A stretch of DNA of 64,000 nt, taken from Hippopus hippopus (lineage: Eukaryota; Mollusca; Bivalvia; Cardiida; Cardiidae). Location: assembly GCA_946811185.2 (NCBI GenBank), contig OX328103.1:30932266-30996265 (forward strand), read 5' to 3'. Under the pieces are notes generated by a model that was not told the DNA's origin, did no database searches, and saw only the letters and a program-made list of their open reading frames with translations. The first letter of the stretch is position 1. Each line of letters begins with the position of its first letter. This document shows positions 6,900 to 56,049 of this stretch, in pieces. Position numbers and translations under genes: made by a program.

Positions 6900-7124
6900 C
6901 TAGACCCTTTACCACATAATTCCGAGTTTTGATGACCTGAGGATGAAGGCTTTTGAAAACATTGTGGGAAAAGGAGAAAATGCTGGTAATCAGCATTTTC
7001 TCCTTTTCTCACCATGTTTTCTAGCCTACCAAAAACAAATTTCAATTTTTTGGTCATATTTATTTTGTCCTCTGCAAATGCTTTCTTTTTGGACAAATCT
7101 AAAATTTCATCATGTGATAGAAAT
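6900..7124 (-). repeat. Family-1 MITE
   Basis: ccctttaccacataattcc opens it, the hairpin lies at 6966-7010, and the gcaaatgctttc arm follows. The end is eroded. Confidence 0.75.
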
Positions 7125-8270: not shown

Positions 8271-11200
8271 CTATACAACAGTATTGTTTCCATGCTGTGT
8301 GAACTTCCTGGCAAACTGTTTGTGTTTCTCTACATCCTCTGGTTTCAGGCTTGGCTTTTGTGTCCGTAGAGCAACCAGAACATCACACTATGAAAAAGTA
8401 AATTATCTCATTTTTCTCAAAACACTTTACCAAACGACAAAGTTTTAGACCTATACATATTGAAAGCATTTGAAGTCTATAATATGATCAGATTTGTCTT
8501 AGAAAGGGTAGAAAATATTGTGGGAAAAGGAGAAAATGCTTGTTACCAGCATTTACTTCTTTTCCCACAATGTTTTCAACGGGTGCCTACTTCAGGGCCT
8601 TTAAAACTAGGGACTTTACCAAACCACAAAGTTTTAGAGTTGTCCAAGTTGAAAGTATCAACAGAAAACAAAGTAAAATGGCTTGAATTACGGTAATTGT
8701 CCAGGAAAGGGATAAAAACACATTGTGTGAAATGAAGACCATGCAGGAGACCGGTTTCTGGCATTTTAACCTTTTCCCACAATGTTTTAAAAAGCTTTAT
8801 TATCCAGGGTTGTAAAAACTCAGGATAGTTTGGTAAAAGGGTCAAAATGGGGTAAAGCTTAAAATGAATCAAATTAAAGTAAAAGATACTTTGTGGATAT
8901 CACTTTTATTTGGATGTTTTCTAACCCAATATCATAGTATTTTTACAACCTACATGAAAACAAGGGTACAAAGAAAAAATATCTGCAGAGAAGGAAAAAT
9001 AATTTCTTATTTCTAGTATATACAAACATTATGTAGCCTGGGTTTCAGTCTGTTCATTTTTTCCTTTTCTATCATGTGAACATTGCTTTGTCAAAAATGA
9101 CGGTAATAGTAACGGAACCAATAAATAGAAAGAGCCAAAGATCAACAGAAAGCCCCATTTAGGAGACTGTAAAATGGAGTAAGTATTAAATTATTACCGC
9201 CTGGACACAGGCTAACATTATGGGAAAATAGTCAATTACACAAAACAAGCAACAGCCTTTTTTTCAGTGCATCAATAAGCATCCATAGCAGACATTTAAA
9301 AAGCAATATCTGTATTGTTATGAATAAACATTGCCAAAGGTAGAATCCTAACCTTTTCACTTAACCCTTTACCACATATCCCAAGTTTCAATAACCTTAT
9401 GGAAAAAGGCTTTTGAAAAGCATTGTGGAAAAAGGAGAAATGCTGCTGACCAGCATTTTATCCTTTTCCCACAATGCTTTCCAGCCATTCACAACAAAAT
9501 TAATCATTTGTGGCATGTTTATTAAAAATTCTGTCATCTGCAAATACTTTCATTTTTGACACTTTTGAAATTTTGTTGTCTTGTATAGAGTTCAATTTAC
9601 ATAAATTGAAATCCTTTTATATTTTTTTTCTCACAGTATAAACAGTATTCCTTCTAAACGCATAGAAGCCTTTCCACAAAAAGATGCCTTTCCCATAACA
9701 AAAGTCATACATCATTTAGCACAGCCTTAGTATTGGTCAAAGACCAACAAACTCATCTCTTAGAGTACCTTTTGCAAATGTAATTATCTCTTGTAAAAAT
9801 TGAAGAATGAAAGCTAAACTTTCACCAATAGAAGAAAAAATAAATGGTGACCTACCAATCGAATGACCGGTTCTAATAATTTCTTTTCTGGAACTTGAGT
9901 CCAGTCCATTTCTATAGCACCATTTTCACCTGGACTGCAAGGTGTAAACATATCTGTGTAATGACTGGTTACATCTCTTGCAGTTACCTGACAACATAAA
10001 GAAATTTCTGACTTTACCACTACTTATGTCTGAGAGAGGGAGAAAAAAAACATCGTCACAATTAAAAAATATAGTGCAAAACAGCAATGTAAAGTTAAGA
10101 AACATAAGCATAGAAAGTTATCTCTACCGATGAACACTTATACTCTTTTGAAAAGTCGCAAACATTGTGGTAGGAAGAAATTGCTGGTACTCAGTAATAT
10201 TTTCTTTAGCCCCATGTTTCCACATGTATTAATAACAATATGTTTGTCAAATTGACAGAAATTCTGATATTACACAGAATTACCTTTTTAAAGTATGTAG
10301 CATCCTGTATTTTTCGTACTGACTGTATCAGTGTTTCATTGACAACTGTAATAATATCAGCACAGGAATATCCCTCTGACCAGGCACCTAGTTCTCTGAA
10401 ATGACAAGAATTTACCTTATCAGCAGGGTGAATACAATTAGGAAAGTCATTCACGAGTGGAAATAATGTAAAGTCATCTTGATTTTATTATCTCTAAATA
10501 AATCAAGCACCGGTACAGTCAAACTTGTATTTAGAGACCAACTAAGAGAAGACAGAAAATGGCCTCTTTCAGCAGATGGTCTCTAAATACAAGATCAGTG
10601 GAGTAGGGTTAAGGGGGGATCCAGGATCTTAACAATGGTTTTTTAACCCTTTAGTACACAATCACTACTTTAAATGACCCTGAGGAAGCCAGCTTTTGAA
10701 AACATTGTCGAAAATGGAGAAAATGCTGGTAATCAGCATTTTCTCCTTTTCCAACAATGTTTTCTACCCCATGACAGACAGATTTCATATTTTGAGTCAC
10801 ATCTAAATTGTTGTCTACAAGTGCTTTCAATCTGGACAAGTCTTAAATTTTGTTGTCTGGTAAAGAGTAAAAGCACATGGCTGCTTAATACAGGTGGTTT
10901 TCAAAAAAAGTTTGATTCTACTCACATAAAATCTTCTTCTGTCAAATTGTGTTGTGTTTGTTCGAGATTCTCACGGAAAAGCTCTGCTCTAGATGCTGCA
11001 GATGGCAACGTTATAAAGATTCTCTTCTCAAATAATTCAACCACTGACTTGTCAAGTATCCATGGAACGTCAGATATACCAACTACCAACAGACCTGCAA
11101 CCAATCAACAGAAAGATTTATTCATAACTTTATTTCAAGATAGAAATGAGATGAGCAAATCAAACCTTTGGACTACTCTCACTACAGCATGAGTACTGCT

Positions 11201-14200
11201 AGTGGCTCCAGGTAGCAATCATAAAGAGTAATTAACCACAGCAAGATTTATATGTAATGAAGGAGTTTACAGATGAGCATTCAAATGTTTTTAAAATGAT
11301 AGTATTTGTTGTTAAATAGGCAAAATACATTGTGTGAAAGGAAAACAAGGCTGGTTGCAAGCATTTTCACCCCTTCCCACAATGTTTTCAAAAGCTTTCT
11401 ATCTCAGGGTCATTAAACCTCAAGATTGTGTGGTAAATGGTTAACTCCTTACAAAACGACAAAATTTTGGACAGGTCCAAACTAAACGCATTTGCAGACT
11501 ACGAAGTACATGTAAATGTAACTCAAATATTTAAATTTGTTTTGGGAAAGGTAGCAAACATCGTGGGAAAAGGAGAAAATGCTGGTTACCAGCGTTTTCT
11601 CCTTTTCTAACAATGTTTTCAGAAGGCCTTATCCTCAGGGTCGTGAAAACCCAGGATTGTTTGGTAAAGGGTTAATATAAATATATATAATTTGTTCCTC
11701 AAAAAGTTTGGAAAAAATATTTCTAAAATAAAACTAACTTAAACTAAAAGCATTTTGGGTTCATTTAATGTATTAATCAACAGTTCTTTTTTAAAAAAAA
11801 AAAGAAGAATATTCATATACATAATTTACATGTTTCGATTCTTCTTTCCTTACCACAGACAATACAAAGAAGCTTTTGTAAACAAAACATACAGTCTGAT
11901 TGATGATCTGTACTGTCCACTACTTTGTTCTAAGTTATCACCAAACAGTCTCTTCATCTTGCAGCTAAACTGTATTCATAGCCATTGGAAAAGTGTAGTT
12001 TATTTACTTGGTAGGTTTTCATACGGATTTCAATTCTTCTCCTTCTAAAGAAAGAATAGGAACATGCAAATGCATATATTTTGACTCCAAACTTGATGTT
12101 ACAATGTCACTGTTCTTTTCACCATACCATCAAGCAAAATACTAGACAATTTAGATCAATGGTCACACTGCATGTTATGTGCAATCTCATCTTGATTTAC
12201 AATGACAACAAAAGCACATCATTTTACCCTTACTACAGTTAGAATTCAACAGAAAATTTGCTACCTAACTCTTACCTTCAAGTTCTTTCTCTGTAGAAGA
12301 CATCATTTGTTTGTGAAGTTCTCTGGTTTCACTTGCTGACAGGCCTTCTAAATGATCAATAATGATAACATGTGGAACATTTTCTCTGGCTTTTTTAAAC
12401 ATGGCTGTCACTGCATTACCACTAGAGTTATAAACAAATGATAACTGCTACAATTGTTTCCCTATGTATACCTTTTAGATACATATTACAATATTTAAAA
12501 GTAACTAGCACATGAACAAAAAAATATTATTTTTGAGTAAATGGTATTAGTAATCCTTTAGCAAACAATCATTAATGAAACTCAGAAAAAAGGCTTCTGA
12601 AAACATTGTGAAAGGAGAAAATGCTGGTAACCTGCATTTTCTCCCCTCACAATGATTTCCTCTCTTTCAAAAACGAATCTTATCATTTAAACCACATTTG
12701 TCATCTGCAAATGTTTTCAAATTGGACAAGTCTAAAATTTTGTTGTTTGGTACAGAGTTAATGCATACTTTTGAGTAATAATTGAATTTACAATTAAAAC
12801 AATCTACCATTTAAAACACACATGGACAAAAAGAAATACTTTTATAAAACTTTTAATATTTGGGGGGATCTTTGACTTGAATTATACTGAAATACATGTA
12901 AAAAAATTATTCTGTATTAAGAGCATTACAACCCAGTGACCATCTTCACTTAAAAATCAGACACAAACATTTACCTGTAACTGTTTAGAGTCATAAATGT
13001 TTGTAGAGTACAATATGAATGTCTTATCTCCTTGGCAACAGCAGTGGCTAAACTGGCCTTTCCGCTTCCTGCTGGCTGCAACATTAAAAATTGAACAAAT
13101 GATTCTTTGCATGTCTCTGTATTTTCCAATTTTAGCATTTACCTCACGAGGCAAAAAAAGGTGCTTTTGGGGACAGTGTAGATCAAGGTCAAAGTCTGAT
13201 CACAGACCTACATTTACTAGTATCTGTTTGAAGTTGTACATTACAGCAAAGCAGATGTGAAGCAAAAAATTTTGTATTTCAAGGAAGTATCTGTAATTTT
13301 TCTATAAAACTTTTAACTAACTTTTCATTTGTGACCTTGGTAAATAAAAGTAAAAAAAACAAAAACCAGAAAAACTGAAAAGAATCAAGAACATTTTAGA
13401 AACTGACAAAAATTGGTATTTTTTTAAATGTCAAAATACTCACACCAAATAGAAGCAAACCCCTCCATGCATGACGTTTCCCTGAAAAAAGAAAAAAAAG
13501 CCTCATGAATAATTTATAACATGTTTATTATTATCTATACGTGTATAATTATATAGACAGAAATAAATTCATTGCATGATAATGAGTCATAACACTTCAC
13601 CTCATATTGGCTTTTAATATTCTTAACCCTTTAATTACCAAACAAGCACAGGTTTCAATGACCCTGAGAAAGAAGCCTTTTGAAAACCTTGTGGAAAAAA
13701 GGAGAAAATGCTGGTAACCAGCATTTTCTCCTTTTCCCACAATGTTTTCTACCTTATGATAGACAGATTTCATGATTTCAGCCACATGTCAATTGTTGTC
13801 TGCAAATGCTTTTAATTTGGACAAGTCTTCATTTCTGTTGTATGGTAAAGGGTTAATTGCCTATCAAAACTAAAGTTCCTTTTAAGTACTTGACATCTGT
13901 GTAGAGAATGATAGGACTGCAGAGAATGTGCACTTTGATCTTGGATCTGTTCTGTCCAAAATTCTATGTTTGCTGGCAAAAACCAGAATTAAACCTGCAG
14001 TATTTTGATCCATTTTTTTTTTTTGCCACACAGTCCCAAATTTTGAAGACCCTGAGGAAGAAACCTTTTGAAAACATTGTGGCAAAAGAAGAAAATGCTG
14101 GTAACCAGCATTTTCTCCTGTTCCCATAATATTTTCTAACCGTTCAAAAATAAATTTAAAATTTTTAGGCATGTTTATTTTGTCATCTGAAAAAGCTTTC

Positions 14201-17200
14201 AATTTGGTCCTGTCAAAAATTTTGTTGTTTGGTAGGGGTTAAATTCCCCCAAAAAGGGTTCATCAGATCCAACCAGAGTAAACAGCATTTATATTCATTG
14301 TGCAACATTTTGAAGGCAATGATTTGTATATGTAGATCTGCTGGTTAAATATTTCCTATGGGCTTTTATTCATTAACAATATGAAATAACTTTCAACTTC
14401 CTACAGATCTTGTTAGGGTGCCAAGCCCTGGTAGCTCAGTCGGTAGAGAGCAGGATTTGAGAACAGGGAGTGTTGGGTTCAATCCTTGGCTTGGTAAATT
14501 TCTTTCCAAGGATTGATGATAGTCATTGCGACAGGATTCATTCCTCTCCCACTGCTGACCATTGTCTCAATGATGGTTATGTGGGAAAGTAGCCTGTGGC
14601 TTGAAAAGAGAATTGTGCAGAGTACTGGCAAAAGAGACTCCAGGAAAGCATGGATAGGTGCACTGGCTGCTGCGATATAACTGAAATAATGTTGAAAACG
14701 GTGTTAAACACCAAAAAATTTATCGATCATGTTAGGGTCTTAGCGCTTTACCATTTAATCCTGTGTTTTGATAGCCATTGGGAAGAAGGCTTTTGAAAAC
14801 ATAGTGGGAAAATGAGAAAATGCTGGTGACCAGCAATTTCTCTTTTTCCCACAATGTTTTCTTCCCTTTCAAACACCAATCTTATGATTTTAGCTACGTT
14901 TTATATGTTATCTGTATGTGAATTTGGAGTAGTCTTTTCTTGATGTTGTTGTTTGATAAGCAGTTTAAATGTAAATGATGTACTGGATATATATTTTAAG
15001 CAATTTAATACACCTTTCAAATTACAAATTTAAATGACTGCAGGGAAAAAAATTCTTGGTGTGCTAAATCGATTGAATTAAGAAATTGATTTTCAATTAC
15101 AATTTCTGTCATCTTCAGTTATCAATTGACTACCTCCAGCAGACAACCTTTTGCACCTTACCCATAATGATATCTTTTTTTTTTCTTTTTGCCACAAAAT
15201 ATTCATACAAATTCATTTCTAAGCTTAAGTCTTTGTTTATCTATATTTCACTCCAAGCTATTAAACTTGTCTGTTGAAAATTTGTGTCAAGAGGTAATAA
15301 ATCAACAGCAGAAGAGAAAGACAAGTAATGTCTTGTCTCTGTAAAAAAAAAAGAAAGGAGGAATGCTCTCTGAAAAAAGGGGCCTAATGCATCTGCAAAA
15401 TGTATCAACCCAGGTCAGACTGCGCAGTCTGCACAGGCTAACCTGGGTTGAAACTTTTTGTTTTGGTCAAAAGGACCAATCTACCTCATGATTCAGGCAG
15501 TTGTTAGACAAAATGGATTTTATGGATCCATCATTATGTGATGACTTGGCTTCATATAATGATTCACAGAGATACATTGAACCCCCTTTTCCCTGATCAC
15601 AGCTCAAATACAATATTCAATAGGTCTTTGTTTGACACAAGATATTGGAAGCGTCTAACCAGTAATCACTAGCTTGGAAGGGTCTGTCCTTAATACTTTA
15701 TCATACAAATACATTTTTTAATTCATGCAGAAGATAGCTCTAGGAAAAAAAGACCATTGAAGAGAAAAAGTGTTATTGCTTTAGACAAACCACTTACAAA
15801 TGTACCATGCTCCGTGAATTGTGGGCTTAATGCATCTGCACAAAGTATCTACCCAGGTCCGCCAGCACAGTCCACACAGGCTGACCAGGGTCAAGACTTT
15901 TTGCTTTTGGTAAATGTAAAGGACCAGTGTACATGTACCTCATGATTCAGTCAGTTGTTATACACAATGGATTTTATGGATTCATAATTATGTGATGACT
16001 AGCTTGGTATCATGCATCAAAGAGATACTTTAAGACCCATTTTGTCAGAGCATGGCCCAAAATCAATTGATATACCATTCAGTAAAGAGGAAATATCTTA
16101 AGAGAGGAGAATGTCTTTTCTAAAGCATTATTAAATCGTGGTCTAAGAAAAGCTACCTGTTAAAGGTTTCTGGTTCTATTTCAAAAATGCATTTTCTGCA
16201 GGATATATTTTACCTACCGGTATGTTGTAATGGGTAAAAAGCTTGTGTGATAACAGATTAAAATTTCTCTTTAAGATAATTTATGAAACATCATATTTAC
16301 TGCCACTATACAAAACCAATTTGCACCAATTTCAGGTCTTTTTGATCAGAATATCCTAATAAAATACTGAACAGAGTAGATCTGTAATAGAAATCAGAAT
16401 AAATATTCTGTGCAGTCTGATCTTGATCTACACTATCAGTAATGCAGTCTGATCTTGATCTACACTATCAGTAAGTTCACAAATTGCCCTAAGCAAACTA
16501 AGAGTTAACTCATGTATAGATGTATTCAAGAGAAATAAATTTTAACCAGACATGTCGCTGAATAATATTATAAACCTGTGACACACTGTACCTTTAACTG
16601 TTGAGCTTACCACACAACAAAAAATTCAGACTTGTCCAAATTCAAAGCATTTGCAGATGACAAATGTCTTGTCGTTTAAGTAATGAAATTTGTCTTTAAA
16701 ATGGTACAAAATATTGTGGGAAAAGGAGAAAATGCTGGTTACCAGCATTTTCTCCTTTTCTCACAATGTTTTCAAAAGCCTTCATCTTTTGGCTTGTTAC
16801 AACACTGGATTGCTTGGTGAAGCCTTCAGAAGGGTAAATTTCTTTTGATTCATATAGGTATATGTTCAAATATGTTTATATCACATCAAAACTACTGAGC
16901 CATACAATATATGTGCATGATTTAGGTTTCACTTTTTAGTTCAATGAATAAATATAGTGAGCTCTAAACACTTTTTTAAGTGTTGATTTTTTCGCCATTT
17001 ATGGTTTAAGACTTTTTAACCCTTTACCAAACAACTAGATATTTTATGAACATTAAGAAAGAAGGCTTTTGAAAACATAGTGAAAAAGGAGAAAATGCTG
17101 GTAAACATAGTGAAAAAGGAGAAAATGATGGTAACCAGTATTTTCTCCTTTTTCCCACCATGTCTACCCTTTCAAAGACAAATATCAAAGTGTGAGCCAC

Positions 17201-20200
17201 ATTTGCATGGTCTGCAAATGCTTTCAACTTGGACCAGTCTAAAAATTTGTCATTTAGTAAAAAGTTTAAATGCTTGAACAGCTCTGAAATGATCTTTGTA
17301 TTAAATGGGATACTCTACAAGAATTTTGATTAAATATAATAAACACCCATAAAAGAATTGTGGCAAAGGGAAAAAAAAAAGCTCATTATGAGCATTTTTT
17401 CCTTTTTCCACAATGTTTTAAAAAATTGTGAGACAGTAATTAGCAGCAGGTAATGAGCTTGTGGAATTTAGAGGATTTTTTTTTTTTTAATTGATTTTTA
17501 CATGCATCATACAACTGTACATTTTTCAATTCAATTCTTTGCTCCACATTGATGTTCTTACATTTATTTTGAAGTGAAGAAGACACTTTACTGTCTGCAG
17601 ACAACCTGAAACATTGTGGCAGAGACAGAGAGGAAACAAAGATCATTTAAATAAAATCATATGTGCTTAAAAAGCTGAACACTGTCAAGCAATTTTATGA
17701 AGATCTTCTGCTTATGAAAGCTATAGAGTACTCATTGGTCTATTCTGTTATTATGATTTTTTCTTTTTACAAATGCTAAACTAGACCTACATACCTGTAA
17801 ATAACTGGGGAAATTTTGTTGGTATCAAAACTGTTTCTTTTACAGCATTTTTCTCTGGTCTTGTTCCCAAATCACTATAACTGTTTCGCCTTGGGCTGAT
17901 GACAGCTGGAATGATATAACAGGTTGAAATTTAGGCTGTGCCTGATGATCAAACAAATTTTAAAAAAAAAAGATCTATAGTTAGTTTCTTTTTCAAGTTT
18001 CCCCCTCCAATTTCTTGTCGACAAGTTGGCAGCAAGCCATAAACAGAAACCATCTGTGGACGAAAACAGTAGAAAATCTGTAAAATGGAATAGACTCAAA
18101 ACTGCTATTAAATCCAGTTCAATCTGGCATTACCAAACAATCCAGACTTTTAACAACCTTCAGAATGAAAGCTTTTGAAAACTTTATGGGAAATGAGAAA
18201 ATAATGGTAAGCAAGCAGCTCTTTCTTCTGTGCAAACATTGTTTTCAACTTTCCAAAGGCAAATTCAACAATTTGATCCTTATTTAATGTGTTGTCTGCA
18301 AATGATTTGGATTTGGAAAATTTCAAAGTTTTGTAGTTTGGGAATGAGTCAAACTGAATGATAAAGTTACTAGCCAACCACACAACAGTTAAGATCAGAA
18401 GGGTCTGTATTCACCATCAATTCTTAAGAACATTCTCAGTCTTATTCTTAAGAATTTTCTAACTTTCAGAGTAACATAGCTTCTGACTGGCTAAACCATT
18501 TGGTTTAGCCAATCAGAATTTGTGTTTCTTTCAAATTTAAATCTAGAAAATCTTGGAAAGTAAGATAAAAAATGTTCATAAGAAAGGTTTATATATATAG
18601 TTATAACATATTTATTTTACATCGATTGAGAAACAAGTTCTAACAACTTATACTTATCTCTCTCAATTCTGCTTCCTCTAAACTACGCAAGTGTCTAATG
18701 TGGGGGCCATTGAACAGTCCCAAAGTTGACACTTGCTCCCAGGTATCGGACTCGGGACCTTTTGGTTACGAGGTCGACACTCTACCTCACAACTATGGAC
18801 ACCACAGAATGGTTAGTGAATACAGACCCAGCACTTCAGATTGTACTTCTTAAGGATTTTTTTTTTTTCACGCAAATTAACTGACTTCAACAATGATTTT
18901 ATCCCTTGATTGATTTTTTTCAAATTCAGACCTGGCCTCCTCGATGGCTTGTAATTGTCAAAAAAGCTGTAAAAAATGGCGGATATCTCCGGTGAAAAGG
19001 TGTCTACTTAAGGATCGCCGAATGTTACAGGTACATTTGGTGTTATCTGTTACTAGGGTAAAGGAAATTGTGATCACTCTTCGTTTCGTTGGTGATTTTG
19101 GGTGGGTAAGGCATTTTTGTGTTGTCGCTGGTAATCAAGGCGTTGCATTCCTTGTGTTTCTTTATACAGGGGAGTATTTTTTTCATATTTAATCATATAT
19201 TTTCATTACAGAATGTCAGATTCCTGTGGTCCAGTCAGCTAAATGTTCAGTCAAAGTTTTCAAAAAGTATCCCGCCTAAAATTGCATCTCACTATAGTTT
19301 TGTTATTGTTATTATAAGTTGCATTGGCATTTTCAGCTGGTTTGTTTGAATTATAATAAGACTTCGTCCAAATGCAACTGTATTTCAGAAATTTCACAAA
19401 AGTCTTCTAATCTAATAATACAAAAAACTCACTCTCCCCTAACAGATCTCAAGTGATGCCTCGTCTGTGAATTTTAAAGCGTTTCGGAACTGAAAGCAAC
19501 AGGTGTAAGGCATGAAAATTGTAGGCCTACCTAGCAACTGATACATCGTTTGAATATATCCATTTCGGCCATTGGACGCATTTTTGTTGATCTTATAACC
19601 CTACTTCTTGATAGTTCGGTGTATGTGTTACATTTTTTTTTTAACAAGTGTGGCAAAATTCTTATACGGAATCCGACTTAACATTTTTCCACCCTTAATG
19701 CCTTTTTCCCTTTCCATGTTTCTATAGGCTGCAAAAGTCGTCTGCGTTTTTAGTCACTGCGCTAAACTACTCTCTACAAAGAAGAATTCGATAGTTTTCT
19801 GAAAACGACATTCTTTCAATTTTTGCGTGATATCAGCAGCCATATCTCACCTTTTGGAATAAGATATGATTTGTTTTTCCATCAGATGTTCAGGCTATTG
19901 TATTCGTCACATTTAGAAATAAACATAAATAACAGAATCTCTTCATACTTCTAAACCAAGAGCGCGCTTGAATTTATTTCCATACAAAAACATTGGTACG
20001 AACCGAGGTACGAAACCTAGTTCTGACTAAAGGACACAAGCGAAGCAAAGTAACGGAACGGAAAGGAAACCTTACTCAGAAACGGTTTTAAATTTCGACT
20101 GGAGTTTACCTTAATACAGCATTACACGCTTGTATGATAATTTACGGATAAATACAGTATAAATGTGTTACAGTTGGCACACTTGGCAAGCTCCGCACTG

Positions 20201-22646
20201 TGACAGAAGGAAAAAATTCGTACAGATTTTTTTGTAAAAGTACAAATAGCTGTCGAGCCTAGTGAAGGAAAAGAGAAAAAATGTAAGTCATGTATATATA
20301 TCGAATAGCTCAGTCCGATATTAATATGAGGAAAAGTACGAATATGAAAAAAGTCGGCGCTTTGAGGGTGCAACCTAGTCCTCACAAAAGGGGTAACATT
20401 TTTCTGATTGAAATGTACAAGAAACTGACAAGTAAGGTCTGACATTTTCTTTCAGTGCGCCAAAATGCCCCCATCTCCTGTGTGTAATCGATTCCTAATG
20501 TTTTACGACTGATCAGACATTAACTAATTTGTAACCCATGCTTCTAACTCGGATCTCTGTGTCGCCAATGACCTGGAAAATTGTCCATGGTCATACCTGT
20601 GTCATGGCCTACTTTTCTACATCGAATAATCGGCTATCAAAACGACGACACGTATTCATCAATCATTATGCATTTGAAATTCCCAGCTGGCCAATATTAT
20701 TTGCTGAGAAAAAAAAACCTGAACCGATGGCTTTTCAATCCCTGAATTTCACATTACGAGATCTGAACAATGGTGGTTAGGTCGGACGTTCTCCGGTTTG
20801 AAAAAAAAACTTATGCAGTGTTCTTGTTCGACTCTGGGACAATTTGTAGTAAACAGCTCGTGATGACTGCTATCATTTTAAGGGTCAACGGCAAGTCCAA
20901 TGCACATAGATCGTTTCATGACCTCTACATGGTCAGTAGCCATCAGGTGCTATGAAAATCGGTATCCGGTAAAAAGCTCTGAACATAACTACAAACAAGA
21001 TTGCTATGAAACGATAGAATACATTATAAGATAAGGTGAAAATATTGGTTTCGCGCATTTCCTCCTTTTCCTAGATTGTTTTCAAATGCCTCAGCCGCCA
21101 GGATCTTTAGAACTCATGGTTTTTTGGTAAAAGAGTTAAAATAAAACTTACCTTTTGTAGTCTGTGGTGGTAAGGTTTTACTCTCAATCGTGATAACTGG
21201 CTTTTCTTTCTTCACCAAACCGTTCCTTGTTCTAGGTACATCTGTTTCTACAGGACGGTCCCTCTCTTTTAAACTGGCCATTTTTGTCGGATCATCTGTA
21301 GTCTTGAGATTCTTTGTTAGGCGATTTTTATCATTAGGCTGCACCAGCTTCGTCTGATCATCCTCAGTGTTTTGAGCTCCAGTCGCTCGATCGTTTTTAC
21401 CCGAATTTGGTACTGTTATTTGTTCTTTTTCGACTTCCGGGGCTTTAGCTGGGCGGATGTTATTGCCTAACTTAGATGGTTTTATTTGTTCTTCCCTTGT
21501 TTCCGGTGCCTTAAACAGAGGATTATCATTTCTGACTTTAACAAGGTTTGGTTGTTTGTCTTCGATGTCTGGAGAATGACTTTCACGATTATAAACATCG
21601 CGTTTCAGGGGTTTTACTGGATTGTTTTCTCGGCTTGAATCTGACGGCTTTTCCAGTTTTTTCTCAGATTTCGGAGAATTCTTAAGCTCATGAAGATCAA
21701 GATATTCCGTTTCATCGATTTTCTTCGGCTCATGTGTAGATTTTTGTTTTTCGGGCTGTTCCCGATCTTCAGAAGGCTTTTTATCGACGGACCTTGGAAC
21801 GCTGTCGTATTTAATAACAGCCATTGTTTTGGTAATAACATCACTATAACGCGGTGGCGGACTTGCTGCCTTTAGTTTCTGTTCTTTCGTATCTTCATCA
21901 TCTGAATCATCTGAACCGCTGATCTGCCCAGTGTTTTCTGCGGTAAGTTTTCTAGCGGTTTCTTCCTCTTCATCGTCGTCTTCAGCTTCATCCTCTTCTG
22001 TGTTTTTCGTTAAGAGCCCTTCAAGTTTTGCCACAGACGGCTCTTTCACTTTCTCTCTTCCTTTTACCGTTTTTGGACTGGTATCACCCACTGATTTACC
22101 TCCATTCACATAATCTGGTTTTGAATAAGGTTTCTTTTCCTCATTTTCAATCTCAAGTAGTTCTTTTCTTTGGGTTTCTTCAGGCTCCACATAAAAATCC
22201 CATCTGAGACTATTCAGTGATCTTGAACGATCTTTTCTTGTTCTAGAGTAGTCTTTTGCGTATTCTGTGTCCACATAAATATCCCAGCTATAGGGTTCAT
22301 ATCTAGATTTATATCGTGTGTAAGGTTGTTCACGTTTTGCAACTCTGTACGGCTCTTCTTCAATAGAGTTACCGTTAGGTCTACTTTGAGCTGAAGTACA
22401 CTGACCCATTGTTAATGATATTGAAATATTATCTAAATGGTTTGATTCTGTAGAAGATGCTGTAAACACTATTGTATTTTCGTTAATATTAGGTTTAGCA
22501 GATATATTTAGAGATATACCGCTATTGACTGTTTCTTTAGGTTTTTCTTTTTCTTTCGAACGCTCTCCGAACCAGTCGTAGGGCTGATATTTATAGACTA
22601 CCTCTGAATAATCGTAATCGCTCTCCCCGTTCAAACACTGGCCCAT
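8271..22646 (-). CDS. VPS4-like AAA pseudo-ATPase with long MGQC-starting disordered N terminus
   Basis: Nine exons, read 5' to 3' on the minus strand: 22646-21152, 17905-17795, 13481-13444, 13075-12975, 12421-12276, 11094-10926, 10395-10284, 9987-9856, 8387-8271. Every junction is GT-AG and the sum is 2421 bases (806 residues plus stop). Residues 1-498 are disordered; about 505-806 align with the VPS4 AAA cassette, including the [10 protein letters not shown] helix, the VPS4-specific beta-domain ([17 protein letters not shown]) and the C-terminal helix. Catalytic positions are lost: Walker A is GPAGSGKA (548-555, Ser/Thr to Ala), Walker B is IIIDHLEGL (Glu to His605), sensor 1 is GISD (Asn to Asp639), and the arginine-finger run RRR becomes VEL (649-651). 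Two exons around pore loop 1 and Walker B are each 18 bases shorter than in the 38200-46780 paralogue. VPS4 normally disassembles ESCRT-III filaments. This copy should bind nucleotide poorly and not hydrolyse it, so a regulatory or inhibitory role is inferred. The MIT domain is absent. Weakest link: the 3.2-kb intron 1 join, supported by phase match only. Confidence 0.82.
8424..8608 (+). repeat. Family-1 MITE, right end missing
   Basis: It opens with actttaccaaacgacaaag; the hairpin is at 8521-8571. It abuts another copy in the same orientation. Lies in the last intron of the AAA pseudoenzyme gene. Confidence 0.7.
8611..8841 (+). repeat. Family-1 MITE, diverged
   Basis: actttaccaaaccacaaag starts it and gtttggtaaaagggtc ends it. 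The hairpin has decayed (8723-8785). Confidence 0.65.
8850..9355. other. Intron sequence with nothing recognised
   Basis: Part of the last intron of the AAA pseudoenzyme gene. AT-rich, with no exon, hairpin or repeat that I can support. Confidence 0.5.
9361..9592 (-). repeat. Family-1 MITE
   Basis: ttaaccctttaccacat opens it; hairpin 9424-9477; end tgtatagagttcaa. Lies in intron 8 of the AAA pseudoenzyme gene. Confidence 0.75.
10140..10222. repeat. Family-1 hairpin fragment
   Basis: gcaaacattgtggtaggaagaaattgctggtactcag is a diverged hairpin core without arms. Confidence 0.5.
10643..10870 (-). repeat. Family-1 MITE, nearly complete
   Basis: ttaaccctttagtacac to tggtaaagagtaaa, with the hairpin at 10708-10758. 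It lies 56 bp from exon 6 of the AAA pseudoenzyme gene. Confidence 0.8.
11312..11444 (+). repeat. Family-1 MITE, left arm missing
   Basis: A diverged hairpin (caaggctggttgcaagc) and a good right arm ending gtgtggtaaatggttaa. The TTAA is shared with the next copy. Confidence 0.7.
11441..11675 (+). repeat. Family-1 MITE, complete
   Basis: Head-to-tail with the previous copy. Both TTAA ends are present and the hairpin at 11564-11608 is intact. Confidence 0.85.
12551..12761 (-). repeat. Family-1 MITE
   Basis: atcctttagcaaacaatc opens it and gtttggtacagagttaa closes it. The hairpin stem is shortened (gtgaaaggagaaaatgc). Confidence 0.75.
13623..13856 (-). repeat. Family-1 MITE, complete
   Basis: ttaaccctttaattacc to tatggtaaagggttaa; hairpin 13690-13742. 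Lies in intron 2 of the AAA pseudoenzyme gene. Confidence 0.85.
14022..14242 (-). repeat. Family-1 MITE
   Basis: It runs from tgccacacagtcccaaat to gtttggtaggggttaa, with the hairpin at 14078-14126. A T-run at 14012-14023 precedes it, and a short family-2-like stretch (13905-13962) lies just before. Confidence 0.75.
14420..14729 (+). mobile_element. tRNA-derived SINE with target duplication
   Basis: The head has a box A-like tggtagctcagtcgg (14430) and a box B-like gggttcaatcc (14474). The body ends in aactgaaataatgttgaaaacgg-type sequence and gtgttaaacaccaaa. The 9-base word tgttagggt occurs immediately before (14411-14419) and after (14730-14738), a credible target duplication. The 3' body recurs at several other sites in the window. 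It resembles molluscan V-SINE-like elements as I remember them; the family name is not certain. Confidence 0.8.
14745..14969 (-). repeat. Family-1 MITE
   Basis: Starts gctttaccatttaatcc; hairpin 14806-14860 is slightly diverged; end gtttgataagcagtttaa. It directly follows the SINE. Confidence 0.7.
15362..15607. repeat. Family-3 hairpin MITE, complete
   Basis: aaaaaaggggcctaatgcatctgc opens it. The central palindrome is ccaggtcagactgcgcagtctgcacaggctaacctgg. The aaaggaccaatctacctc and atggatccatcattatg blocks follow, with the tip ccccttttccctgatcacagc. Confidence 0.8.
15812..16063. repeat. Family-3 hairpin MITE
   Basis: A second copy in the same orientation 200 bp on. The centre is ccaggtccgccagcacag; the end is cagagcatggcc. 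The ATG-led reading frame at 15757-15945 is an artefact of it. Confidence 0.75.
16385..16476. repeat. Family-2 fragment with tandem duplication
   Basis: The ~32-base block gcagtctgatcttgatct followed by acactatcagtaa occurs twice in direct succession (16413-16444 and 16445-16476). Confidence 0.75.
16607..16838 (+). repeat. Family-1 MITE
   Basis: cttaccacacaacaaaaaa opens it and a perfect hairpin lies at 16714-16766. The right end shows a small insertion (tggtgaagccttcagaagggt). Confidence 0.75.
17016..17269 (-). repeat. Family-1 MITE with internal duplication
   Basis: ttaaccctttaccaaac to tagtaaaaagtttaa. One hairpin arm is duplicated: aacatagtgaaaaagg occurs at 17073 and 17104, so two left arms face one right arm. 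Confidence 0.75.
17350..17425. repeat. Family-1-like hairpin core
   Basis: attgtggcaaaggg through ttccacaatg with the variant turn gctcattatgagc. No arms. Confidence 0.55.
18128..18352 (-). repeat. Family-1 MITE, diverged
   Basis: gcattaccaaacaatccag to gtttgggaatgagtc. The hairpin core is broken. Lies in intron 1 of the AAA pseudoenzyme gene. Confidence 0.6.
18402..18828. repeat. Family-5 palindromic element with an inserted SINE head
   Basis: The left half runs from gtctgtattcacc through the centre ggctaaaccatttggtttagcc (18498-18519). The closing tip agaatggttagtgaatacagac is displaced to 18806-18828. Between about 18592 and 18805 sits foreign sequence containing a reversed tRNA-like stretch (tcggactcgggacc, ggttacgaggtcgac). 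Confidence 0.65.
19200..20990. other. Repeat-poor intron stretch
   Basis: Middle of intron 1 of the AAA pseudoenzyme gene. I see no exon with a supported splice pair, no family 1-3 element and no tandem repeat. It is the longest element-free stretch inside a gene here, so it may hold regulatory sequence, but nothing specific is visible. Confidence 0.4.
21013..21139 (+). repeat. Family-1 MITE fragment beside a splice donor
   Basis: A diverged hairpin (aggtgaaaatattggtttcgcgc) and right arm end in ggtaaaagagttaa at 21139. The end is 12 bp from the donor of the long first exon (21152). Confidence 0.7.
21152..22646 (-). CDS. Exon 1 of the AAA pseudoenzyme gene: acylation site, PPxY, 22-residue repeats
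   Basis: A 1495-base exon with an uninterrupted reading frame, ending at the donor AAAAG/GTAAGT. The start ATG at 22646 has A at -3 and G at +4 and gives MGQCLN; Gly2 and Cys4 fit N-myristoylation plus palmitoylation. A second in-frame ATG at 22409 (Met80) again gives MGQC with a good context. Then come aromatic motifs YQPYDWF (20-26), [10 protein letters not shown] (116-125) and RWDFYVEPE (148-156), an acidic run (217-229), PPRY (264-267, a NEDD4-type WW ligand), and five 21-22-residue repeats over 375-483 beginning N-P-L-F, N-I-R-P, N-D-R-A, K-N-R-L and R-D-R-P. The remainder is rich in Lys, Glu, Pro and Ser. I recognise no homologue of this region. Confidence 0.8.
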
Positions 22647-38199: not shown

Positions 38200-38576
38200 C
38201 TATTCTTTATCACTCCCTTCTATGTACGGACCAAACTCTCGAGTGAATTCATCTATTTTTGCGAGATACTCATCCGTAACTGTTGGTTTTGACTTGGTCA
38301 AGGCTTCTAGCATCATATCCTGAAAATAAAATTGATAAAATAATCTCACTTGTATTTCTGTAAATATAATACTAGTATATTGTTCAAACAACAATGGCAA
38401 ATAAGCCCATTTAAACCAGTTTAAGTAACGATGTCACACTGAGAGAAATTCCACAGAAATGACCGAATTATGTTAACATGCCTTGTCAGCGAGTAAACAG
38501 TAGTAATGGGCACTTGTCTGCCTTTCTGTCTGTATGTCTACCTGCCTCCTGCGTCTGTCTCTGTCTCTGTATGAAC

Positions 38577-38653
<77 letters not shown>

Positions 38654-41600
38654 CTACCTATACATCACATACGGGTATAGCGTGGACAAAAAAAGATCCA
38701 AGGTTAAATCCTGCAATATTTAAGTTGTTTCAACTTTTTTGCGGACATTATAAACCAAAGCTCAGACTTCACAAGTCGTACACCCTGATCTTACCCACAA
38801 CATGCTTTATCGTGAGATCTGGCCAAAATTGGCTATAAAATTGCAATCATTATTTTTTGTTTGTTTGCTTCTTTTCAGTGAGCCTAAGAATACCCTGAGC
38901 AGCTTAAAATAGACAGCAAACAAGAGCCACATTCACATGGCCATCCCCCGCCGAATGCTTGCTCAATAGAAGATGTGTCTTCTTGTAGGTTAGTGTAAAG
39001 GCTAAAACAGCTAGATGTAAGAATTATTTTCTGGCAATGCTAAATACAAAGTAAAATAAAAACATCAACAAGGTACACTTTTCTTAGTCTCTCACTGACG
39101 CCTTTTATGGTTTTCGAGTTATGCTCCGGACAAAATTATGAAAGTATGAAAAATAACAAAGGGCAATAACTCCTAAATTATGCAATCAAGAGTTATGGTT
39201 CTTGTATACTGCACTTGTCCTCAATGTCATCTATCAACCTGTGAAGTTTCATGTTTCTATCTCATGTAGTTTTCAAGTTATGCTCTAGACAAAATTAAAG
39301 TAAGAAAAAAAACAAAGGGGAATAAATCCTAAACTATGCAACCAAGAGTTATGGTTCTTGTGCAATGCACTTTTTCTCAATGTGATCTAACCACCTGTGA
39401 AGTATCATGTTTACACCTCGAAAAATTTTTTAGTTATGCTTCAGACAAAATCTATGAAAAATAACAAAGGGCAATAACTCCTAAAGCATGGCAGTGAAAG
39501 TTATGGTTCTTGTACGCTGCACTTCTGCTCAATGTCATCTATCAACCTGTGAAGTTTCATGTTTATATATCATGTTATTTTCAAGATATACTCTGGACAA
39601 AATTTAAGTATGAAAAATAACAAAGGGCAATGATTCCTAAATTATGCAATTCAGAGTTATGATTCTTGTGCACTGCACTTCTCCTTGATGAGATCTATCA
39701 ACCTGTGAAGTTTTGTGTTTATATCTCATGTAGTTTTCAAGTTAAGCTTTGGACAAAATTTAAGTAAGAAAATAACAAAGGGCAATAACTCCTAAATTAT
39801 GCTATCCAGAGTTATGGTTCTTGTGCACTGCACTTCTCCTTAATGAGATCTATCCACCTGTGAAGTTTCATGTTTACAACTTTTATAGTTTTTGAGTTAT
39901 GCTCCGGACAAAAAGTGAGACGGAAGGACGGACAGACGGAAGGACGGACGGACGGACGGCTACTATTACCATATCCCCCGCCGCCTTTTTGGCGGGGGAT
40001 AATAAAGTAAGTGTATCAATATTCAACTAACCATGCTTATTTTCCGCAGAAAGAGTTTTTCTTCTGTAATTTGTGTCCAGTTCATTTCAATTGCACCAGG
40101 GTCATCCGGAGAACATGGGGTCAAAAGGTCATCTACAGTAACACTTGGGTCTTTAACAGAGGGACCTGTAACCTGGTTGAATTTAAAACATTAAATCCAT
40201 GAATTTCAGACCTGCAATTACCGAAAGTAGTTTTAACCCCAGACCTGCAGCAGACGACTTTCAATTACAGTACATTATAGATGGTCAAAATCAAAAGTTT
40301 TAATTAATAAATAAAAGTTACAGCATTGTTGCACAAAGATTATTTCCATTCAAAAGTAGTTTGCTGCAAGACACAAAGAGTCCGAAGAACATATTTCGTA
40401 AATGGTTCCTCTAACTATACTGGTTCTGAACAGTAGATCTAGTGGGTCTTTATCAGACGATAGAAATGTACACTTGACCAAATTGAAAACATTTGCAGAC
40501 GACAATTTAAACGTTAGTCGAATGATGAAGAGGGTAGAAAACATTGTGGAAAAAAGGGGGGAAATGTCGGTTACCAGCATTTTATCCTTTTTTCCACGAG
40601 TTTGTCAAAAGCAGTCTTCCTCAGGTTCGTCAAAACTTATTAAAGACAAAGGGTGAGATGGCGCAGTAGGGTTTAAAAACTTGCCTGAAATGTTTATTAC
40701 CTTTTTAAAATGTGTAGCACTACTGATCTCCCGAACAGGTTTCATCTGTGCATCTCTGACAACGCAAAATATATCTGAACCCGTGTAACCTTCCGACCTT
40801 TTACCCAAATCCCTGGAAATAAAAAAATGAAGGCGGAATACATATCATAAACACAGATGTTGTATAGTTCCACGAAAAAGCCAAATCATTTATATACACC
40901 GTCAAACCTATCTTAATGGCCACCTCAATTAATCAACCAAGTTGTCCTATGATACCAACATTTCAGTTACAAAATATTATTTTTTGAGCAACCATCTGTC
41001 TTTAGTAATAAATGGTAAATAATCCCTTGGCCGATTGCTCAATACAATGTCTGTCTGAGGGTGTCATTAATAAGTATGTCAATTTGATTTTGTATTTTCT
41101 ACGTGGACGGATATGCTTGAACGTATGAATGCATCTATCTGTCTTTGCATGTAGATGCACGATGCGAATGTGACAGCCGAAGGCTTAACTCGTGATAACC
41201 TGATAATTAAAATGAATTAAGGTCACAGGAATACAAGAGAAAACTGCTCGTTACTACATGTAGCAAAATCTTTTCAAAAGTGGTCTGCAGAATTTAAAAG
41301 AAAGTTGTTCGCTACATTTAATTAGGCGACAAAAGGCGTTATGCCTAACATGACACATGCAAATAGTTGTAATACTAATTAATAAACGATATTTATAGAC
41401 AAAATCACCCAACTCACTCGAAATCCTCTTCTGTGAGGCTGTGGGCAGAATCGCCTAACAGAGTCTTGAACATCTGACTCCTTGCTGAAAGGTCTGGTAA
41501 AGGTACAACAACCCGTTTAATTAGACATCTACGAACAGACGGTTTGATTTCCCAAGGCACGTTTGTTGTACCGACCACCTGGATTCCTGTAAAACATGTT

Positions 41601-44600
41601 GATGATTAAATAGGTAAGTTAGGGTGTAACTCTTTGCAAAGTAATTCTGAGGAAGATGACTTTTGAAGACTTCGAAAAAATTGTGCGGAAAAAGAAAATT
41701 CTGATAACCAGCATTTCCCCACAATGTTTTCTGCACTGCCAAGGATAAATCCCATCATTTCAAAAATTATAAATTTGTGATTTGAAAAACTTTCAAATTG
41801 AATGATTTTTAAACGCCGTTTTCAATTGTATTTTCAATTTCATTTGTATTCACATTTAATCCTTAGGCTGATAAGCGCGACTCACTGACCTTTTGCGGAC
41901 AGTGTAGATCAAGATAAGACTGCACAGAACGTGCAGTCTTATCTTGAATCTACACTGTCCGATATGGATATATTTTTCTCTAAAAAATAAGTTTTAAATT
42001 GCATTATTCAGGTTTTCACTATCGACTTGGAAGTTTCCTTTAACTTATTTAGCAGGTTAAGAGTTGAAACAATTCGAAAGATAAATCTTGTTAGATGTTT
42101 TTGTAACAGCGTTTTCAACAGCAATTCAATGACTTATGGTTGTCTTTTCTGGGTTTCACTAGTACTTGTCCTAGGACACTTCCATGTGATGCGAACACAT
42201 CTACATAGATAGATGGCAGATTTTTATTTTTCATGATGATTTAACCTTGGAACACGAAACACTAAATCATAAGACAGTTTAGCAGGAATAATAATGAGAC
42301 AAAACTATAGTCGACGTTAGTTTTGCCAGACTATCCCATGTGATATAGGACTGGTCTAAACTGTATTTTCTGGCATCCCCTAGTTAACTTTGTGAGACAT
42401 AGAAATTAATTTGTCTTTTTTCAGGGGTCCAAGATAAAAATCTCTTAAAAACTTTAGAGACTCTTTCGTAATATATTAACAATCGGATTGTTGTTGATGT
42501 TTTGTTGTTGTTGTTGTTGTTGTTGTTGTCATTGACGTTGTTTTAAAAAAGTTAAGAAACGTTAGACTTTTTTACTGCTTTTTGTTTGTTTGAATAACGT
42601 CGCTTCTACTACCCGTAGATCTACTAGTGTATGAAAAAGTACATACATGTATTTTACACACCCGTCACAACTAGAACTATCATAAATCAGACATATACCC
42701 CCACCAGCACATTGTCAATGAAGCGGCACAATCAGAGAACGGAAATGATTTTCAAAACAGAGATCACCTGTGACCTTGACCTTTGATCCGTGTGACCAAA
42801 AACCGATAGGGCACCTCCTTGGATCATGGGCAATACTTGCATAAAGTTTCATGTCCCATGTTAAAGAGCCACTGAATTAGAGCACCGACAGTATATCAAA
42901 CAAAGTTCATCAGTGACTTTGACCTTTGACCCATGTGACCCAAAAATGAAAGGGCACTTCCTTGGGTCATGAGTAAGACCTGTATAAAGTTTAAGGGTCC
43001 TAGGTCAAACACCTATTGAGTTACAGCAAGGAAACGATTTTCAAAAAAAGTTCTCCTGTAACATTGACCTTTGACCCATGTGACCAAAAAACGAGAGGCC
43101 ACCTCCTTGGGCCATACTTGTATAAAGTTTCAGGGTCCTAGGTCAAACGGCTTTTGAGTTAGAGAACAAAAACGAAAAGTCTACAAACGGACGGATTGAC
43201 GGACGGACGGCCAACCGAATGGATGGACAAAAGGACAGACAGACAGATAGACATGTTGAAACCGGTATACCCCCCTTTTACTTCGTAGGTGGGGGTATAA
43301 AAATGCAGATCTTTAATAAAGCTGACTGCAATTATCTGTTCTTTCGAAGTCTATGGTGGAAAGAAACTATTCTTCCGTCGCTATTTTAACACATTCAACA
43401 TGGAATTGCTGAGAAATGATCAGTTTAAACGCCAGTTTCTTTCAACACAAAGATGTTTTGATGTCGAAAATAAACTTGTCTGCAATGTGAGAAACCTGCA
43501 AACATATTACTGACGTCATGAACGTGACGATAAATTACCTTTTTACGTCATGCTCGTTTGGAAGAATTTAAATACTTAATGACGTTTTCAAAAGCTTTTT
43601 ATCGTAATCAGAGACCGCTAAATGAGTCAGCATGTAACAATGGGCTGCATATAACCACAAACTGCGAAATCTGCCCATACCGGTATTTCCCCTGTAACAT
43701 TTGTCTATCTGGAGAAGGAATTCGGTTTTAAATCTTCTTTCCCATTCATGTTTTTCCCGTTGAGAACTCAGTAGGTCTATATCATCAATCAGGATTACAC
43801 ATGGAGAATTCTGGTGGGCCTTTTCGAACAGTGCCTTTATTAACCTGGAATTCCAGAGCAAAACTCATTAATTTAGCCCTTTACCAAACAATTCTATATT
43901 CTGACGGCTCAGGAAAAAATGCTTTTTGAACACACTGTGAGGAAAGAAGAAATGCATTTTTTTATCTTTTACACCACAATACTTTCCACTCTTTCACAAC
44001 CAAATGACATAATTTGGGCCACATGTCATCTACAAATGCTTTCAATGTGGATAGGTCTTAAATTTTGTTCAGTGGTAAAGGGTTGAATATGGTAAAATAC
44101 AAACCATCAGTAGTTTACCGGGAAGTATAGAAGAGACTTACTGTTCATTGTTTCCAATGTATCTAGACATTAAATCCGATCCGTGAACATGGAAGAAAGA
44201 AGCATCGCCTCTATGGATTGCAAGGGCTTGTCCTAATAAAGTCTTCCCTGTGCCAGGCCCCTGGAATAGATTAATTGAATTAAATGAATGGTGTTTTAAG
44301 CCGCCTTCAACATTATTTCAGTCATGTCACTGCGACAGTTTACATATTAATGTTTTTTCTGGGTTTCACAGGTACTAGGTTAGGGCTCTGAGGTATCTTT
44401 CAAAAGACACTCCCACGAAAAACCTAGTGGATCCAGCGAGTCTCGAACCCGGGACATCCAGGTCACGAGTCCTACACTTTTACCACTGAGCTACGCAGGA
44501 CCCCTGCCTGGAATAGACATGTAAAGAACCTTCACTTATGTACATAGTTGTGCTGTTCAACTTAGCTCTTTACCAGGCGACAAAATTTTAGACTATTCAA

Positions 44601-48351: not shown

Positions 48352-49293
48352 TCAAACTGCCGGAATTTCACATATATAGCCATATTCTGTATAACACTGA
48401 ATATCGTTGAGTTCCCAGGAGTGCGGTCGATAGAGGCGGGCACAATGATCGTTACCGTCAGTATTCAAATTATACTCCCTCCAAATATCACCGTCCATTG
48501 TCTGGTTTAAACCTGTAGAAGTGACCCAGTGGTCATTCGACGTCCCAACTCTCATCGTATCCACCCAATAGCCGTCTAAAAAAGGAAAAAAATACAGAGA
48601 ATTGTGTAGGCTGTTCCAGTTGTACATTACACGTATAAAGTGTGGAATCCCGTTTCCGCCTTTCTGGCCCCGTATCACACACACCCGTGTTTTAACGACC
48701 CTGAGCAGGAGGGTTTTGAAAAAAAATGTTGGAAAAAGGGAAATGCTGATAACCAGCATTTTTTTTTTTTCACTTTGCAACCATGTTTTTTTTACACATT
48801 TGCAGGACAAAATTAACGATTTTAGTCTAGTGTAGATTGTCGTCTGCAAATGCTTTCAATTTGAGCCAGTCTAAAATTCTGTCGGATGTTAAATAGTTTA
48901 ATCTTTATCCTGCGGAATTTGACTGATTATGTCGACGAGTTCACAAAAAAGGTTCCGCTGAGTTTAGTGGCATTGAACTGGGTTTGTATGACCGAAACTA
49001 CAGATAAAGTAGTGAAGAGTATAGAACAAGATCAAATTGCACGTATGTGCAGGCTGGTCTTGCTCATTACTCTCTGCAAAATACATAAATGGTTAAGGGT
49101 TAAATATCGCCCTTGCAAACCACGCCAAAGAGAATATGATTGTGTTGTTGTCGTTCAGAAATGCACATGCAATGTTTCACTATTTCACGGCCAGGAGCAG
49201 CTTTACTATCCTTTAAATATCCGAGGCGGTGCAGATCCTAGTCAGACTGCACAAAATTTGCAATCTGATGATGTTATCTTCGGCGTTCTTCAG

Positions 49294-49327
<34 letters not shown>

Positions 49328-55897: not shown

Positions 55898-56049
55898 GTT
55901 TGCTTTGACGACAACTTGTACACATTTGGACCACAAACATCAACAGTTTCAAAGTAAAGCAACAAGGCACGTAGGGTTTGAGTCACCCTGAGAAATCCGT
56001 GTTTAGAATCATTAGTGATCATTGAGACCTGAATGTTAAAACTTAGTCT

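Follow-up and report, generated by a model that had tools for sequence, protein, structure and literature searches.

A VPS4-type gene with replaced catalytic residues in the bivalve Hippopus hippopus: a possible natural brake or scaffold for the ESCRT machinery

VPS4 is the motor that brings ESCRT-driven membrane cutting to its end, and it binds ESCRT-III tails through its MIT domain. In a stretch of 64,000 nucleotides from the bivalve Hippopus hippopus (contig OX328103.1; the whole stretch is referred to as the window), a VPS4-type gene, in the following termed gene A, carries replacements at catalytic positions of its AAA module, which raises the question whether it encodes a pseudoenzyme shaped by selection or is a duplicate in decay, and what a VPS4 relative of this kind could do in a cell. 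We consider it a little short of an even bet that gene A encodes a VPS4-type pseudo-ATPase whose fold was held by selection and which is tethered to a membrane, where it would capture LIP5 and/or VPS4-type subunits and slow down VPS4. The acylation, binding partners, inhibitory effect, and expression of this protein are what we infer from the sequence, and the product may be a natural brake or scaffold for the ESCRT machinery.

Gene A is composed of nine joined exons on the minus strand (22646–8271, Table 1) that yield a single frame of 806 amino acids with zero internal stops. All eight introns follow the GT-AG rule and all exon phases are compatible, as the original prediction had stated for splice sites and reading frame. 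Its assignment of the module to the VPS4 type likewise holds: both AAA (residues 544–659, 57.6 bits) and Vps4_C (residues 739–797, 69.9 bits) exceed the Pfam cut-offs, with AAA_lid_3 scoring below its cut-off, and among solved structures VPS4B (best, 244 bits) and yeast Vps4 match most closely in sequence. An AAA core followed by Vps4_C, the mark of VPS4 by descent, is thus present, and the N-terminal MIT domain, the mark of VPS4 by architecture, is absent from the protein according to Pfam. An MIT-coding stretch was not found in the window either, where a clam MIT query gave 0 matches and a frog MIT query gave two, only at an E value of 2. The absent MIT domain, an MGQC N-terminus, the deletion of pore loop 2, and a second VPS4-like gene in the window (gene B) go beyond the original prediction.

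Table 1. Positions of the exons of genes A and B and of further domain-coding exons in the window.
Feature	Position	Strand	Remarks
Gene A exon 1	21152..22646	-	residues 1–498; MGQC at residues 1 and 80; donor GTAAGT
Gene A exon 2	17795..17905	-	AAA start
Gene A exon 3	13444..13481	-	38 nt
Gene A exon 4	12975..13075	-	Walker A GPAGSGKA (Ala555)
Gene A exon 5	12276..12421	-	Walker B motif IIIDH with His605; lacks pore loop 2
Gene A exon 6	10926..11094	-	sensor 1 GISD (Asp639); arginine-finger run VEL (649–651)
Gene A exon 7	10284..10395	-	small AAA domain
Gene A exon 8	9856..9987	-	beta domain with Vta1/LIP5-binding loop (loop limits: PMC5413351)
Gene A exon 9	8271..8387	-	C-terminal helix and stop
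Gene B exon 1	46758..46780	-	proposed from frame and splice signals only; 23 nt, MASDELL
Gene B exon 2	45552..45670	-	
Gene B exon 3	45049..45086	-	38 nt
Gene B exon 4	44142..44260	-	Walker A GPGTGKT (Lys, Thr kept); pore loop 1 SRYIG
Gene B exon 5	43681..43844	-	Walker B ILIDD (Glu to Asp)
Gene B exon 6	41418..41586	-	retains sensor 1 GTTN; finger run RRC with one of the two arginines replaced
Gene B exon 7	40701..40812	-	
Gene B exon 8	40032..40172	-	beta domain
Gene B exon 9	38200..38319	-	C-terminal helix and stop
C-type lectin exon and Sushi-like exon	48352–50706	-	lectin above Pfam cut-off; Sushi-like just below cut-off
PAN-domain exon	55511–55939	-	at Pfam cut-off

With respect to its surroundings, the C-type lectin and Sushi-like exons probably form one secreted lectin gene. 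Between positions 7000 and 26000, the window furthermore contains 15 copies of a 53-nt palindromic core (GAGAAAATGCTGGT/ACCAGCATTTTCTC), flanked by longer families and often situated in the introns of gene A; this repeat is MITE-like, and a 60 % copy of it (20988–21157) adjoins the end of gene A exon 1.

The replacements at the centre of the original prediction were all recovered at the given residue numbers in the spliced translation: the Walker A Ser/Thr is Ala555, the Walker B Glu is His605, the sensor-1 Asn is Asp639, and the arginine-finger run is Val649-Glu650-Leu651. They sit inside exons 4, 5, and 6, away from the splice joins. An alignment with 190 VPS4-like proteins of at least 40 % identity to a clam VPS4 (from 293 fetched, and including the Mactra antiquata protein P0244 discussed below), revealed these positions to be near-invariant. 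The Walker A position is S in 182 proteins and T in 7; of the 190, 187 possess the Walker B Glu and 186 the sensor-1 Asn, and at each of the finger positions (R288 and R289 in yeast) 188 carry Arg. Part of the deviations could stem from model errors. The arginine fingers of yeast Vps4 are R288/R289 (PMC5413351) and, judged by the yeast numbering (Glu233, RRR at 287–289) and the spacing, represent the last two Arg of the run, so that the finger positions of gene A are Glu650 and Leu651. By its spacing from the Walker B Glu, Leu651 is also the counterpart of human VPS4A Arg284.

Of the set expected in an active ATPase, gene A has therefore replaced the Ser/Thr, Glu, Asn, and both finger arginines; the claim that every main catalytic position is changed was slightly too strong, since Walker A Lys554 and Walker B Asp604 are still present. 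Pore loops 1 and 2, both expected in an active translocase, have suffered as well, with short deletions in both regions. Pore loop 2 is missing (1 of 11 conserved residues is left in that stretch), and in pore loop 1 Tyr581 and Gly583 may represent the aromatic residue and the glycine. Taken at face value, the sequence supports a product that is dead in catalysis.

A gene of this kind might also be a once working paralog that is now drifting, its open frame being a remnant and its missing residues the first signs of decay. Gene A indeed forms the longest end branch of our tree (4.79 changes per column), its pore-loop regions carry the deletions mentioned above, its C-terminal helix is poorly retained, and two protein searches did not return an ortholog (see below). 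However, all nine exons are intact and the 806 codons are free of stops, which is hard to reconcile with drift over the divergence seen. The module shares 45 % identity with a Mactra VPS4 over 283 aligned residues, and in 500 neutral simulations that introduced substitutions (substitutions only, without indels) into this Mactra VPS4 down to the identity of gene A, 0 of 500 runs stayed stop-free, each acquiring at least two stops (mean 9.1, minimum 2). Neutral decay is thus an unlikely history for gene A. The mean BLOSUM score of its replacements (0.03) also lies above the simulated maximum of −0.32 in these 500 runs. Selection at the protein level has probably acted through much of the history of gene A; such a simulation reports past constraint and may be compatible with a recent relaxation.

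The losses of gene A are also uneven and concentrated on catalytic and pore sites, which again speaks against simple drift. Measured against 110 animal-like VPS4 (a set that was chosen second, with p-values uncorrected for such choices), 9/35 conserved catalytic and pore residues are retained as compared to 75/125 others (p 0.00047), and the bias persists at conservation cut-offs of 97 % and 99 % (p 0.002 and 0.006). It is weaker among 189 VPS4-like proteins (7/21 vs. 38/64, p 0.046) and in this broad set with a slightly different site list (7/20 vs. 38/65, p 0.078). Gene B is unbiased by the animal-like yardstick (21/35 vs. 78/125, p 0.85), and P0244 is biased at some cut-offs (p 0.07, 0.026, and 0.021; p 0.011 for the broad set). 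In the beta-domain stretch of gene A, 14 of 16 animal-conserved residues are retained, and a loop encoded by exon 8 matches the Vps4 loop that contacts Vta1/LIP5, which comprises residues 375–385 in yeast (PMC5413351). The yeast small-domain Arg R325 also contacts Vta1 (PMC5413351), and its equivalent in gene A is Ile. In addition, of nine animal-conserved residues in the C-terminal helix, gene A has just 3 left (5 in gene B and 7 in P0244), and its docking may therefore be weakened.

Overall, gene A has the features of a pseudoenzyme by its letters, in that catalytic residues appear to be lost and the fold to have been under constraint, the latter for the past only. The original view of a conserved pseudoenzyme rather than a decaying gene is thereby borne out as far as the dead active site, the stop-free frame, and the conservative replacements are concerned, but not for conservation itself, given that no ortholog was found in two protein searches, which also missed a known relative. 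We regard ongoing relaxation of a formerly functional duplicate as unlikely, albeit a scenario that deserves to be kept in mind.

Of the 498 residues that precede the AAA module, 79 % belong to a polar or disorder-promoting set; Glu, Lys, Ser, Asp, and Pro are abundant, and the region is probably disordered. The tetrapeptide MGQC at residues 1 and 80 fits the myristoylation pattern PS00008, with MG-X3-[STAGCN] as the N-terminal signal. The MGQC start thus resembles sites of myristoylation/palmitoylation and would point to an acylated protein. The two in-frame MGQC starts (22646 and 22409, minus strand) are preceded by somewhat similar letters, and the DNA similarity of the two starts reaches a local score of 44.5 as compared to a maximum of 43 in 200 shuffles, which is no more than suggestive of an old DNA duplication; perhaps they serve as alternative starts. 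A scan of the tail for P[ST]AP, YPxL, and MIM motifs found none. It does contain one PPxY (264–267), which was set aside as evidence for a late domain, 0.1 copies being expected in shuffles (P 0.10).

Any membrane-anchored architecture presupposes that exon 1 is truly joined to exon 2, which we hold to be quite probable. If instead exon 1 encoded a separate protein and the AAA exons possessed another, unseen first exon, this architecture would be false. The basis of the join is splice signals and frame, and the exon 1 frame, if left unspliced, stops 12 codons past the donor. This donor, however, reads GTAAGT in full and lies near the point where the frame ends, and the hexamer occurs at a rate of 1.6e-4 per position in the window. 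When intron 1 was screened under a strict rule for alternative first exons (short, with ATG and a phase-1 GTRAG donor), no candidate emerged. An error in the gene model is, in our estimation, rather improbable.

With the joined architecture as a basis, a mode of action can be outlined for the putative membrane-tethered pseudo-ATPase. Gene A retains the beta domain for docking, has lost pore loop 2, and would neither hydrolyse ATP nor trans-activate its neighbours. In place of MIT it would carry the long tail with the acylation-like MGQC, by which the protein could be placed on a membrane; with MIT absent and this tail in its stead, it is probably located at a membrane rather than recruited by ESCRT-III tails, and its targeting to ESCRT-III sites would depend on the putative anchor. 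There, the beta domain (together with the small domain) would dock LIP5/Vta1 and/or VPS4-type subunits, and the protein might enter rings of VPS4 (the presence of which in the genome is assumed) or of the gene B product. Each such subunit would harm the ring in two ways, as its own site would be inactive and its neighbour would receive no arginine fingers, and for both reasons gene A would slow VPS4 at its membrane and, with it, ESCRT-III turnover. Human VPS4A Arg284 is an arginine finger the replacement of which results in a dominant-negative protein, and E228Q and Arg284 variants of VPS4A are dominant-negative in cells (PMC7820634). The dominant-negative idea hence has a precedent in the Arg284 variants, and by analogy inhibition by the gene A protein is plausible.

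The same features could conceivably serve the opposite purpose: as a docking subunit bound to one membrane, the protein would bring LIP5 and active VPS4 together there and speed up their action without any inhibition. Such a positive scaffold would be in line with the well retained beta-domain stretch with its Vta1/LIP5 contact (14/16) and with the anchor-like N-terminal motif. Yet already a single replaced arginine finger or Walker B Glu renders VPS4A dominant-negative in cells, and gene A, which lacks both, should hinder any ring that it joins. We therefore deem a purely activating role unlikely.

A tblastn search of the window with gene A detected gene B (46780–38200, minus strand), a VPS4-like gene that lies upstream on the same strand and comprises nine exons encoding 334 amino acids without MIT; exons of 38, 169, and 112 nt are common to both genes. 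Its Walker B Glu is replaced by Asp and its second finger Arg by Cys, with the other checked catalytic positions retained, so that the product would perhaps be a weak ATPase or a second pseudoenzyme. A protein search with gene B (3798 candidates) placed Mactra antiquata at the top and Dreissena among the next, as judged from the best 120 of 277 proteins. The M. antiquata protein P0244 (358 aa, annotated as VPS4B) likewise has no MIT and possesses Walker B Asp-Asp, a sensor-1 Ser, and the finger run RKC. By analogy with VPS4A, where replacement of Arg284 is dominant-negative, the Cys at the matching position suggests that the gene B and P0244 proteins may also be impaired. Moreover, Glu to His requires two base changes with Asp as a possible intermediate, and gene A may therefore have passed through a state like that of gene B and P0244.

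The relationships among the three are less clear-cut. As to whether gene A groups with VPS4 or rather with spastin/fidgetin/Sap1, it falls within the animal VPS4 fork of the tree (95/77, a tentative node) and the outgroup split is recovered with 100/100 (three outgroup rows), both under a long-branch warning; owing to the branch of 4.79, the placement of gene A is unsure. Gene B pairs with P0244 (91/75, likewise tentative), and a clade of gene A, gene B, and P0244 receives 35/0. Constraining genes A and B to group together was not rejected (p-AU 0.733, with a likelihood higher by 9), in a test that is subject to the same long-branch pull. Gene A is 43.7 % identical to the VPS4-like protein P0185 as compared to 38.8 % to gene B, which ranks 179th of 293 rows by score against gene A. 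A simple tandem pair of A and B is thus not established, A being closer to VPS4-like proteins and the three-member clade reaching only 35/0.

The two genes might still cooperate, namely in a mixed AAA ring reminiscent of the nucleotide-free LAP1/LULL1 with Torsin. Such a pairing would fit their location in one window and on one strand and their matching exon pattern, as well as the fact that gene B retains the Lys and Thr of Walker A, the sensor-1 Asn, and a single finger arginine out of two; LAP1–Torsin offers a precedent. However, LAP1 works by donation of an arginine finger and gene A has lost both, in gene B itself the Walker B Glu has become Asp and the second finger arginine Cys, and the identity between A and B (38.8 %) is lower than that of A to VPS4. 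We consider a paired ring very improbable.

With regard to gene A itself, no ortholog was recognised among 120 proteins of a first search (E ≤ 0.001; 4089 candidates; proteins under about 443 aa excluded) or among 61 proteins of a second (2796 candidates), both of which returned VPS4 and other AAA proteins. The missing ortholog is weak evidence, because both searches overlooked the Mactra VPS4 P0182, which attains 253 bits against gene A in BLASTP and was recovered by the gene B search (among the best 120 of 277). A more far-reaching and doubtful idea is that these genes belong to a clam family of VPS4 paralogs without MIT that lost catalysis step by step, with Asp for the Walker B Glu and Cys for the second finger Arg in gene B and P0244, and with His and no fingers in gene A. 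The dead, membrane-anchored gene A product would then be devoted to braking ESCRT scission at a single membrane by blocking each ring at its own and the neighbouring site, for example against the budding of enveloped viruses.

Dominant-negative forms of VPS4 are used as tools in the laboratory and cause disease in humans, in both cases made by mutation. If the membrane-tethered pseudo-ATPase proves true, gene A would be a normal gene for a dominant-negative VPS4 that is tethered to a membrane and free of ESCRT-III recruitment. It would represent a natural experiment that separates the VPS4 functions of LIP5 docking, ring assembly, and hydrolysis, and might reveal a route to ESCRT inhibition at one membrane that spares others. 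Among the open PMC papers listed, judged mostly from titles and abstract beginnings, none dealt with an animal VPS4 gene that has lost catalysis.

Among known systems, VPS4A/VPS4B (Vps4, SKD1) share with gene A the AAA core and the Vps4_C oligomerisation/beta domain (about 43 % identity for the module), whereas gene A has no MIT, carries S→A, E→H, and N→D replacements, has lost both fingers and pore loop 2, and bears a long acylation-like N-terminus. The dominant-negative VPS4A E228Q, VPS4B E235Q, and VPS4A Arg284 variants have a replaced Walker B Glu or arginine finger in common with gene A, but are single changes in a VPS4 with its domains otherwise kept, while gene A is a natural gene that combines such changes without MIT. 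LAP1, which is proposed to give an arginine finger to Torsin (PMC4358337), and LULL1 resemble gene A in that their activator domains have an AAA+ fold without nucleotide chemistry and are membrane-bound. Unlike LAP1, gene A has no finger to give (Glu650/Leu651), which precludes the mode of action proposed for LAP1 on Torsin; it also retains the small domain, while LAP1 lacks the C-terminal domain. RetroCHMP3 is reportedly an ESCRT-III paralog that blocks virus budding and thus embodies the common idea of a gene-encoded ESCRT inhibitor that arose by duplication, yet it is an ESCRT-III subunit, whereas gene A is an ATPase relative for which inhibition is only proposed. LAP1/LULL1 and VPS4, for their part, belong to different AAA+ clades. 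Closest in kind are P0244 and gene B, which, like gene A, are of VPS4 type without MIT and with altered conserved catalytic positions; both keep the Walker A Lys and Thr and have Walker B Asp-Asp where gene A has Asp-His, and among the sequences at hand the MGQC tail is found only in gene A.
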